Shown here piece by piece: positions 49,222 to 51,577 of a stretch of DNA of 51,577 nt. The notes beneath the pieces are model-generated. The model was not told where the DNA came from. It ran no database searches and was given only the letters and a program-made list of their open reading frames with translations. The position numbers and the translations under genes were made by a program. Within the stretch, counting starts at the first letter, position 1. Each line of letters begins with the position of its first letter. The stretch comes from Parabacteroides chinchillae (GTDB lineage Bacteria > Bacteroidota > Bacteroidia > Bacteroidales > Tannerellaceae): assembly GCF_900108035.1 (NCBI RefSeq), contig NZ_FNVS01000023.1, forward strand, positions 1-51,577, given 5' to 3'.

Positions 49222-49832
49222 AATGCCAGACCTCAGCTTTTGAAACCTTGCTGGCTGCCAAAAAAGACGGAGCGGAAGGAGTGAATGAATTATTCTTTTG
49301 CGAACATCTTCCTGTGCTGACTATTGGCAAAAGCGGCAAAGATTCTAATCTGCTTGTCACGGAAGATTTGTTGAAGCAGCGCGGAGTCTCTTTCTTCCAT
49401 ATTAACCGCGGAGGAGATATAACCTATCATGGTCCCGGGCAGATAACAGGCTATCCCGTGTTTGATCTGGAATGCTGGGATTTGGGATTGAAACAGTATA
49501 TTGATCGCCTGGAAGAGATTGTTATCCGTTTTCTGGCATTATACGGAATCAAAGGGGAACGGCTCGATGGTGCTACCGGTGTCTGGATCGATCCGGACGT
49601 ACCCGGACGTGCCCGGAAGATATGCGCTATCGGGGTAAAGAGCAGCCGTTTTGTTACCATGCATGGTTTTGCCTTGAATATAAATACCGATTTAACATAT
49701 TTCTCCCTCATTAATCCGTGTGGCTTCAAAGATAAGGGTGTAACATCGCTGGAGAAGGAACTCGGAACTGCGCAAGACTTCGAACTGGCAAAAGCCCGCT
49801 TACTTTCACTCTTCAGGGAATTGTTTGTCTGA
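49167..49832 (+). CDS. lipB: Octanoyltransferase LipB
   Basis: LipB transfers octanoate from acyl carrier protein to lipoyl domains for lipoate synthesis. The 221-residue product has RGGDITYHGPGQ (81-92), catalytic Lys158 in AIGVKSSR and catalytic Cys185 in INPCGF. The ATG at 49167 fits the family N-terminus (IYHDLGRISYADALECQ), although it lies 55 bases inside mtgA. The stop overlaps the next start by one base (TGATG). Confidence 0.97.
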   Translation: MESFIYHDLGRISYADALECQTSAFETLLAAKKDGAEGVNELFFCEHLPVLTIGKSGKDSNLLVTEDLLKQRGVSFFHINRGGDITYHGPGQITGYPVFDLECWDLGLKQYIDRLEEIVIRFLALYGIKGERLDGATGVWIDPDVPGRARKICAIGVKSSRFVTMHGFALNINTDLTYFSLINPCGFKDKGVTSLEKELGTAQDFELAKARLLSLFRELFV

Positions 49833-50782
49833 TGGAATATAAAATACATTTTGCTCCTTTGCAGGGATACACCGATAATGTGTACCGTGAAGCACATGCA
49901 CAGGTATTCGGGGGAGTGGAGTTTTATTATACGCCTTTTGTCCGTCTTGAGAAAGGCGGATTCAGAAATAAGGAACTCCGGGATATTTTACCTTCCGGTT
50001 CCGGCTGTTGCAGAGTTGTTCCCCAGCTTATAGCAGCTACTCCCGAAGAGTTCAGGCAAATCGCTGCTTTGTTTTATGCTAACGGCTACAGGCGGGCAGA
50101 TATAAACTTGGGCTGCCCTTTTCCGATGCAGGCCCGTTTACACAGAGGTGCAGGTATTTTACCTTTTATAGGTGAAGCAGAAGCGCTACTGAATACGGTA
50201 GAAGAATTTCCGCAAATACAGTTCTCTGTTAAGCTAAGACTGGGGTGGGAGACGGTGGATGAATCCTGGGTGCTTTTGTCTGTATTGAACCGGCTTCCTT
50301 TGGAACATATAACGTTGCATCCGCGATTGGGTGTACAGCAATATAAAGGAAGTGTGGATATGGACGGTTTTACTGCTTTTTACCAGGCGTGCAAACATCC
50401 TCTTTTTTATAATGGGGATATTGAAACGTTGGAAGACATACGGGATATAACGTCGCAATTTCCTCTGTTGAAAGGTATAATGTCAGGGCGTGGCTTACTG
50501 GCACACCCGTGGCTTGCAGTGGAGTATGAAAAAGGAAAAGAGCTCTCTGCTGTTGAAAGAAAAGAAATGCTGGAAACTTTTCACGCCCGATTATTGACAG
50601 GGTATCAGGAACGGTTGGAAGGCGGCGAACATCAGGTTCTGGCAAAACTCAAAACCGTGTGGGATTATTTATTGCCGGAAGCTGATAAGAAGTTACGGAA
50701 GAAGATTCTCAAAAGTAATATCCTGGATGTATACTGCCAGTCCGTGAAAGAATTGTTCAGGGCTTATCCTTTTATTGGATAG
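49832..50782 (+). CDS. tRNA-dihydrouridine synthase family protein
   Basis: Dus enzymes reduce uridines in tRNA D-loops with FMN and NADPH. The 316-residue product begins IHFAPLQGYTDNVYR, has the NLGCPFPMQARLHRGAG segment with the catalytic Cys, the SVKLRLGWE strand, ITLHPR and the phosphate-binding GDIETLEDI and GIMSGRGLLAHPWL. It is a bacterial-type Dus of uncertain subgroup. It is the last gene of the xylulokinase-mtgA-lipB group; palindromic repeats follow. Confidence 0.95.
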   Translation: MEYKIHFAPLQGYTDNVYREAHAQVFGGVEFYYTPFVRLEKGGFRNKELRDILPSGSGCCRVVPQLIAATPEEFRQIAALFYANGYRRADINLGCPFPMQARLHRGAGILPFIGEAEALLNTVEEFPQIQFSVKLRLGWETVDESWVLLSVLNRLPLEHITLHPRLGVQQYKGSVDMDGFTAFYQACKHPLFYNGDIETLEDIRDITSQFPLLKGIMSGRGLLAHPWLAVEYEKGKELSAVERKEMLETFHARLLTGYQERLEGGEHQVLAKLKTVWDYLLPEADKKLRKKILKSNILDVYCQSVKELFRAYPFIG

Positions 50783-50805
50783 TTTTAGCTCCCTTGCTAT
50801 GTAAT

Positions 50806-51037
50806 GGCTATAGCCTGGTTTTAGTTACCGTCCGCTGAAGCGGACGGCCTAAAGTATGTTCTCTTTGTAGGCTTTAGCCTAAGTTCGGTTGCCGTCTACT
50901 TTAGTGGACGGATCAAGGGATGTACATTCCTGTTGGCTTTAGCCAAATTTCTTTCCGGTTGGGCTAAAGCCCTTGAAAGAGGATGGCTCTACTATCCGTC
51001 GGTTGAAACCGATGGCAATTGAAACCGGGCTAAAGCC
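50806..51037. repeat. Array of alternating palindromes (REP-like)
   Basis: Two palindrome types occur. Type A: GGCTATAGCC (50806-50815), TAGGCTTTAGCCTA (50868-50881), TTGGCTTTAGCCAA (50933-50946), GGGCTAAAGCCC (50961-50972), GGCTAAAGCC (51028-51037). Type B, 8-bp stems with four-base loops: 50828-50847 (CCGTCCGC/GCGGACGG, loop TGAA), 50892-50911 (CCGTCTAC/GTGGACGG, loop TTTA), 50996-51015 (CCGTCGGT/ACCGATGG, loop TGAA). The type B copies share CCGTC at the left arm and change both arms together. This looks like a dispersed bacterial palindromic-repeat family. Confidence 0.8.
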
Positions 51038-51052
51038 ATTTCTATCCATTAA

Positions 51053-51577
51053 TCAGATATCCCGGACACAGCGAACAGAGAAGCTGCCGTTCGTGCTGCC
51101 CCAATTGAAATTGCCATCACTGAAGCGCAGTAGGCAGCGGCCAATGACAATACCACCGTAGACCGAACTACTCCAGTAGTACTTGCTGCCGAACGCAGCG
51201 AAGCCGGATATGGACTCTAGTTTAGCCTTATTCTGATACATGGCGAACAACTCGATCTGAGTAGGAATACGCCAACCACTACCGAGTTTAGTACATTCTG
51301 CCTTAGCTGCACCATTATCGTAACGATAAATACCTGAAGGCTGAGTCTTAGACACCTCGATGGAATAAGGAGTACTTATAGTAGCAGTAGAAGAAGTACC
51401 CTTATAATCAGAACCGGTTGTGCCTGTAACTGTACCACCATCGTAATTAAATGGAGGATAAGTAGTAAGGTCAGACTGTTTCGCCTTATAAGCATCGGCT
51501 ACGGACTGGTCGATGGTGACCTTATTTGGCGGTACTAATGTACCCCGCACACAGCGGATATAGTTGTTGTAGTTCGT
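51053..51577 (-). CDS. 3' part of a DUF1566/Lcl_C-like domain protein, possible retroelement target
   Basis: The reading frame is open to the right edge, so the gene starts outside the window. At least 174 residues are visible on the minus strand. The terminal domain has GSGWRIPTQIELFAMYQNK, YYWSSSVYG, LRFSDGN and SVRCVRD followed by a TGA, a DUF1566/FISUMP-type pattern. Just right of residue 1 of the visible part lies the end of a preceding similar domain (NYIRCVR), so domains are tandem. The two 36-base ends (51577-51542 and 51094-51059, read on the minus strand) differ almost only at adenines. This suggests the variable region of a diversity-generating retroelement; no reverse transcriptase is in the window. 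Confidence 0.75.
   Translation of the reverse strand, partial: TNYNNYIRCVRGTLVPPNKVTIDQSVADAYKAKQSDLTTYPPFNYDGGTVTGTTGSDYKGTSSTATISTPYSIEVSKTQPSGIYRYDNGAAKAECTKLGSGWRIPTQIELFAMYQNKAKLESISGFAAFGSKYYWSSSVYGGIVIGRCLLRFSDGNFNWGSTNGSFSVRCVRDI

Follow-up and report, generated by a model that had tools for sequence, protein, structure and literature searches.

A chromosomal diversity-generating retroelement with several templates and its probable remote adhesin-like target gene in Parabacteroides chinchillae

The truncated gene at the right edge of the window resembles, in its last domain, a target of a diversity-generating retroelement (DGR). Is it one, and where would the template and the reverse transcriptase (RT) that write it be found? 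The window spans all 51,577 nucleotides of contig C26 in the P. chinchillae genome (G000; 3.57 Mb, 38 contigs). The original prediction rested on a 36-base alignment between the terminal domain and the end of the domain before it. This alignment is real: its 10 mismatches fall at 6 of the 10 adenines of the upstream copy and at 4 of its 26 other bases (Fisher p=0.014), and the counts reported for codons 3-7 are exact (6/7 adenines and 2/8 other bases differ, p=0.04). Taken alone, the adenine bias in these 36 bases is weak.

The window gene and the source element on contig C19

The relevant features of the window, all on the minus strand, are:

50996..51015: inverted repeat CCATCGGT-TTCA-ACCGACGG, pairing over 8 bp with a single mismatch and lying 44 bases beyond the variable repeat (VR)
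51053..51577: 3' part of the target gene, an open reading frame of 174 codons plus stop that the contig end truncates on its 5' side; C-terminal domain Lcl_C / FimD-tip-like (Lcl_C 34.8 bits, just below the cut-off of 34.9; FimD_tip_adhes partial)
51059..51076: sequence GTTCGCTGTGTCCGGGAT at the 3' end of the VR, resembling an IMH; the template repeats (TRs) carry ...GGGAC at the equivalent place
51060..51178: VR core, which departs from TRa at 17/36 adenines and 4/83 other positions
51179..51193: 5' end of the VR, a better fit to TRd than to TRa (mosaic)
51542..51577: tail of the preceding domain copy, TR-like, stopping at the contig end

The VR forms the last ~120 bases of the adhesin-like gene, and the upstream copy at 51542-51577 is the end of a preceding TR-like domain copy, not a template. 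The start of the gene, its signal peptide and its operon lie outside the assembled DNA. Between the target and its neighbour gene, at 50783-51050, there are palindromic GGCTTTAGCC/GGCTAAAGCC-type repeats, which are partly common to the DNA behind other remote targets.

Searching the genome with the terminal domain of the window gene returned paralogues and a row of short copies beside an RT on contig C19 (453,796 bases). A template and an RT beyond the window had been predicted, and contig C19 holds both: four TRs, with mismatches concentrated at A, adjoin a DGR-type RT and an Avd gene. The features, again on the minus strand, are:

C19:233477-237258: three Mfa_like fimbrillin genes (profile match)
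C19:230113-233475: C19 target gene, 1,120 residues, with six BACON stretches and a terminal Lcl_C just below cut-off
C19:229275-230015: HU-type (HU-DNA_bdg)/DUF4469 gene, between the VR and the template array
core end 228851: TRd
core end 228497: TRc
core end 228128: TRb
core end 227759: TRa
C19:227576-227681 (core end 227576): fifth, decayed template unit, directly before the RT
C19:226174-227574: RT
C19:225846-226190: Avd

The four tandem TRs are intergenic, between the C19 target and the RT, and comprise three distinct cores, TRb and TRc being identical in the core. An internal deletion in the fifth unit spans the leader end and the TR start. The RT matches phrog_1423 ('Reverse transcriptase', 3.3e-93) and RVT_1, and its closest solved relative by sequence is 8ub7 (E 1.9e-30); none of the NCBIfam RT models matched it at cut-off. 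It contains IGNLTSQ and YVDD, which we take to be DGR RT motifs. The Avd product matches Pfam bAvd (67.2 bits, cut-off 40) and phrog_3206 ('Avd protein of DGR', 3.6e-26), and scores 62.8 bits with NCBIfam DivGenRetAVD, below the cut-off of 80. Both reading frames are open, and a blind, template-agnostic scan over a 6-kb stretch recovers a TR/VR pair at C19. Because the RT lies ~226 kb from either end of C19, it would be at least ~226 kb away from the window if both belong to one chromosome.

A further RT of the genome (C5:26093-27253; phrog_1423 9.6e-95) was rejected as a second source, since no adenine-biased repeat was found within 18.6 kb of it. It is 46% identical to the C19 RT and stands beside a FISUMP/Lcl-type gene, with no template within the same 18.6 kb. 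RTs about as distant are also present in G013, G025, G029 and G047, and the 10 kb around the one in G013 contain no adenine-biased repeat. The RT at C8:21536-22396 is retron-like (PADLOC RT_VI best, 7.6e-83). We also rejected a phage origin of the C19 element: the RTs in 103 phage records are all less than 60% identical, and six RT peptide patterns gave no match in viral contigs.

In total, the genome contains 11 VR copies in 8 genes on 8 contigs. The part preceding the Lcl domains (alignment columns 100-800) is 92-100% identical per 100-column block in the targets on C36, C17, C24 and C30, except for one C30 block at 85-86%, and this near-identity may be why several contigs break inside target genes. 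Beyond this part the Lcl domains differ more, with some segments recurring between genes as cassettes; over two 100-column blocks, for example, the first Lcl domains of C17 and C24 are 98% identical. In P. bouchesdurhonensis (G013), the counterpart of the window target's neighbour (49832-50782, presumably a dus-like gene) abuts instead a large gene that we take to be TamB-like, and in G000 the match to this large gene stops 290 bases before the end of contig C4. Together these suggest that the window target was probably inserted between the dus-like and TamB-like genes, with the joining DNA left unassembled. An isolated 20-base match to a VR end at C24:57977-57996 is perhaps a target remnant.

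Adenine bias and template fit

Each VR core was compared over 119 bases with the template that leaves the fewest non-A mismatches. For the window this is TRa, and the adenine bias becomes strong (p=1.4e-7), bearing out the identification of the gene as a DGR target. Codons 3-7 read AAC AAC AAC TAT GTT in TRa and GGC AGC TTC TCT GTT in the window, with 6/7 adenines changed and no other base. Two of the further codons that had been read as adenine changes do not come from such changes: GTC (51148) faces GCC, and TGC (51136) is unchanged against TRa. The VRs compare as follows (adenines differing; other bases differing; share of core mismatches at A), the last four being less clean:

window/TRa: 17/36; 4/83; 17/21
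C14/TRa: 18/36; 3/83; 18/21
C36 terminal/TRb: 16/41; 1/78; 16/17
C19/TRb: 15/41; 1/78; 15/16
C35/TRd: 16/38; 2/81; 16/18
C17 internal/TRd: 21/38; 2/81; 21/23
C24 internal/TRd: 20/38; 2/81; 20/22
C17 terminal/TRb: 20/41; 5/78; 20/25
C24 terminal/TRb: 20/41; 6/78; 20/26
C30/TRb: 16/41; 3/78; 16/19
C36 internal/TRb: 14/41; 7/78; 14/21

Roux et al. (PMC8144416) recognise a DGR by a share of no less than 75% of its TR-VR mismatches lying at A of the template; 10 of the 11 VR cores reach it with their best template, and C36 internal lies below. Over an extended region, 19 of the 27 mismatches between the window and TRa fall at A (70%). Of the eight non-A differences, six match another template, either outright or through a change at an adenine; the remaining two (alignment columns 43 and 78) fit no template. 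Across all VRs, changes that no template explains number 5 in the internal copy C36a and 0-3 in each of the other ten. Pooling the 11 VRs, 149/374 cells are changed where every TR has A, compared with 26/847 where all TRs share another base. The bias also has a direction: with the VR taken as template, 0-2 adenines differ against 19-25 other bases in five pairs.

A bias to A had also been expected against the nearest paralogue, and here the outcome is mixed. Between the window and C14, mismatches inside the VR fall at 8/22 adenines and 18/108 other bases (p=0.044), but the bias is lost when the roles are swapped (p=0.23), and none of the comparisons with C36, C24 and C19 inside the VR is significant (over all VR-VR pairs, the seven others give p 0.12 to 0.78). 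This is an unfair test of adenine bias, as both copies have been mutated and little bias is to be expected between them. No adenine bias was seen in the DNA preceding the VR, where the window or C14 was set against paralogues in eight comparisons (p 0.1 to 0.89).

The VRs do not all follow the same template. In a likelihood comparison the window, C14 and C24 terminal are nearest TRa; both C36 copies, C19 and C30 are nearest TRb/c; C35 and the internal copies of C17 and C24 are nearest TRd; and C17 terminal is ambiguous between TRd and TRb. A mosaic of two templates fits better than any single one in 6 of the 11 VRs, the window included. We assessed this gain assuming today's templates and fixed rates (0.45 at A and, for all other bases, 0.03 when fitting and 0.05 when simulating). 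It exceeds all 3000 single-donor simulations in the window (TRd then TRa), C24 terminal (TRa then TRb), and C17 terminal and C30 (both TRd then TRb), and reaches p=0.0027 for C36 terminal and C19; in the other five VRs it is not significant (p 0.06 to 0.29). A few metagenomic fragments turned up in all; just two of them, P0002 and P0004, have the first VR half in common but not the second, the pattern expected of partial replacement anchored at the 3' end.

The templates themselves vary in an unusual manner. In the five array genomes, 49 of 91 variable columns of the TR cores contain transversions, compared with 18 of 85 in the leaders that precede them. This transversion-rich change, unlike that of the leaders, suggests that the template library may be under diversifying selection or rewritten from VRs. 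As for self-rewriting of templates by adenine mutagenesis, 63/89 variable columns between TRs include A against 38/74 in leaders (p=0.015), the two having different base compositions.

Leaders, related genomes and target-site marks

A structured element of ~135 bases lies 5' of each readable TR whose upstream DNA is known. The alignment of 15 leaders predicts 38 base pairs, and 11 of these show one or more two-sided changes. The four leaders of G000 all match the whole Rfam RT-7 RNA model (RF03028) at 35-40 bits (E 3.5e-7 to 7.1e-6), far below its gathering score of 116.8, and are thus not RT-7 members by the Rfam rule. A covariance model trained on 15 of the 16 full leaders was run on 38 genomes of the genus, scoring up to 87 first-pass candidates per genome. 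Full leaders were found in the five array genomes (four in G000, four in G013, three in G020, three in G025, two in G023), besides one truncated leader in G000 and a partial one in G025; among the candidates scored, no leader was found at E 0.001 in 32 other genomes. Two weak matches occur in G005 (C318:3106-3224 and C132:6469-6616), where the RT search gave no match at 1e-20. As no scored candidate elsewhere in G000 is a leader, all recognised templates of this genome lie in one array.

Of 59 genomes searched, including G000 itself, eight have some RT match at 1e-20, and G013, G020, G023 and G025 carry RT orthologues of 82-96% identity. These four further genomes of the genus hold what are, by sequence, orthologous arrays, with 4, 3, 2 and 3 readable templates, respectively; a further unit of G025 has its template masked by N. 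In each of the four, the VR adjacent to the array shows no non-A mismatch to a template of its own array: G013 against TR1, A 15/39, other 0/80; G020 against TR3, A 11/38, other 0/75; G023 against TR2, A 18/40, other 0/73; and G025 against TR1, A 10/38, other 0/75. For G025 the template choice is not firm, since TR3 is nearly equal (12/39 and 1/74, a single non-A mismatch) and one template is hidden. The cores of the RT-adjoining units are 96-99% identical among G020, G023 and G025, but the first unit of G025 is likewise 96% like the last unit of G020; the tree suggests that unit types outlive speciation in these three genomes. The units of G000 and G013 group by species in the whole-unit tree, but not in the core tree. 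An HU-DNA_bdg/DUF4469-like gene also lies between VR and array in G013; in G020, G023 and G025 the VR and TR1 core ends are 370-373 bases apart, leaving no room for it.

Remote VR candidates in these four genomes amounted to 24 places, of which 20 were tested, leaving out G013's own four TRs. Two places in G023, L071 and L075, exhibit a weak adenine bias (p 4e-3 and 8e-4); it is nominal only at L076 (p 0.02) and L081 (p 0.03), L074, L077, L082 and L094 matched their own TR rather than a VR, the adjacent VRs there being the ones compared separately above, and the rest of the 20 gave none. By eye, L071 and L075 are more like G000-type templates than G023's own. A search of the four genomes for the N-terminal part of the dispersed targets, run without a positive control, gave no match.

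The VR ends carry marks that the templates lack. GGGAT ends all 11 VRs of G000 and all four adjacent VRs of the other genomes, whereas the TRs end in GGGAC. We scanned the DNA behind terminal VRs and behind TRs for hairpins in the same way, allowing one mismatch and with 300 shuffles each. A GC-rich stem of 7-11 bp stands 36-45 bases behind the VR in 12/12 terminal VRs, with a score reached by 0-6 of 300 shuffles, while none of the 16 TRs scores as high (the best two have 6-bp stems, reached by 21 and 27 of 300 shuffles). A single inherited stem is common to the seven remote targets, which leaves three independent stem sequences in the scan. Two stems, those of the window and G023, contain a mismatch; the window's score is reached by 6/300 shuffles, and with no mismatch allowed only 5 bp remain, reached by 63/300. 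The window repeat is possibly a homing hairpin, or else a terminator. BPP-1 needs a hairpin structure after its VR, according to the excerpted text of PMC3240598.

The modelled terminal domain of the window gene (pLDDT 83) has as its best Foldseek match 8q4e, the Lcl C-terminal domain (E 5.5e-7, TM 0.50/0.66), followed by C-type-lectin-like proteins, and a sequence-profile search likewise places 8q4e first (E 2.3e-4). The modelled fold and the Lcl_C match thus agree on the C-type-lectin-like domain that had been predicted, a fold that DGRs typically diversify. Proteasome chains, next in the profile search (E 0.002-0.0035), were set aside as probably chance matches. FimD_tip_adhes gave 29, 43 and 44 bits for the window, C17 and C24 (cut-off 170) and no match for C19, C30 and C35, the other three of the six targets scanned. 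The C19 target follows the three Mfa_like genes, and DGR-diversified tip pilins have been reported, as cited in PMC12632263; with the sub-threshold FimD matches, this suggests a pilus-tip role of the targets.

Mechanism, alternatives and meaning

At the level of sequence the analysis establishes an RT, an Avd gene, templates, adenine-biased differences, and several templates that fit several targets. We consider it very probable that the window gene is a remote target of this chromosomal Parabacteroides DGR, rewritten in the following way. RT and Avd would copy one of four template RNAs, presumably transcribed and used with the help of their leaders, misincorporating opposite adenines. The cDNA would then replace the 3' end of an adhesin-like gene in trans, with the GGGA(T) end of the VR as its anchor and perhaps with aid from the hairpin behind it. 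Successive partial replacements could leave chimeric VRs, as four templates with three distinct cores are at hand. The C-type-lectin-like domain, probably located at a pilus tip, would thereby gain a new binding surface, and the DGR may be active at present.

Could the same sequences have arisen otherwise? Ordinary divergence of paralogues, by positive selection and gene conversion with no retroelement, would suit a multi-copy adhesin-like family with shuffled domains and little adenine bias between one VR and another. It is refuted in substance, and has become scarcely conceivable, by differences that are specific to adenine and to direction when measured against intergenic templates beside RT and Avd. 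A less remote idea, though still an unlikely one, makes the window gene a fossil target: its VR would have been written long ago by this DGR, or by an ancestor with other templates, and now only be inherited and reshuffled among paralogues. The non-A mismatches of the window VR fit this, as do the Lcl parts common to paralogues as cassettes (the first domains of C17 and C24) and the five unexplained changes in C36a. However, the RT and Avd frames are open, only 1-3 non-A mismatches separate the VR cores of C19, C36 terminal and C14 from a present template, and the adjacent VRs of the four other genomes have none.

A separate doubt concerns the mosaics, which may look like two-template products because the templates changed after the VRs were written. 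We regard this as a serious possibility, if somewhat short of even: TR cores do vary among species and units, and our test presupposes today's templates and constant error rates. Against it stands the size of the gain, beyond every single-donor simulation in 4/11 VRs and nearly so in two more. The reading that we put forward tentatively is of a DGR whose differently edited templates, each with its own leader, are kept by selection as an array, while one RT overwrites dispersed adhesins in 3'-anchored layers that combine templates.

Each TR of the G000 array is preceded by conserved structured RNA, for which we know of no counterpart 5' of the TR in BPP-1, the Bordetella phage prototype. In the excerpted account of BPP-1 (PMC3240598), the RT, Avd, TR, VR, adenine mutagenesis, IMH-like end and hairpin after the VR are alike. 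The G000 DGR differs in having four templates, where BPP-1 has one, and remote targets; its hairpins stand 36-45 bases from the VR, compared with 4-34 in BPP-1, and their loops are not GRNA. In Bacteroides, DGRs are reported to diversify the tip pilins of type V pili (Macadangdang et al., Science 2025, as relayed in PMC12632263 and PMC12875486), which are probably targets of the same kind.

DGRs with several VRs (PMC3521204), several TRs (PMC6642488) or remote targets (PMC4891356) are in print, as far as the excerpts of these papers go. Yan et al. (2019, PMC6642488) counted several VRs in 28.6% of 948 DGRs (271), 79.9% of these with one TR; the portion of their text at hand does not mention leader RNAs, arrays conserved across species or mosaics of donors for the multi-TR/multi-VR systems. 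The DGR of Treponema denticola likewise has remote target genes in some strains, but its TR types differ between strains and do not form one tandem array (PMC4891356, in part). Our literature search, which covered few subscription papers, found no account of a leader-led template array or of a chromosomal Parabacteroides DGR of such kind, and the passages available of a Parabacteroides paper (PMC13026095) mention only a prophage without a DGR. The leader-led template array with mosaics seems to be new. Systems with remote targets are probably undercounted, as a large survey could not detect them (PMC8144416, as excerpted).

These findings suggest that one retroelement reaches a whole family of adhesin-like genes in trans over long distances, and they offer a natural system for asking how a DGR picks its templates and targets. 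The conserved RNA before every template may be the signal by which templates are recognised, a role that can be tested. If the array does work as we tentatively propose, this DGR would add a combinatorial choice of templates to random adenine mutagenesis.
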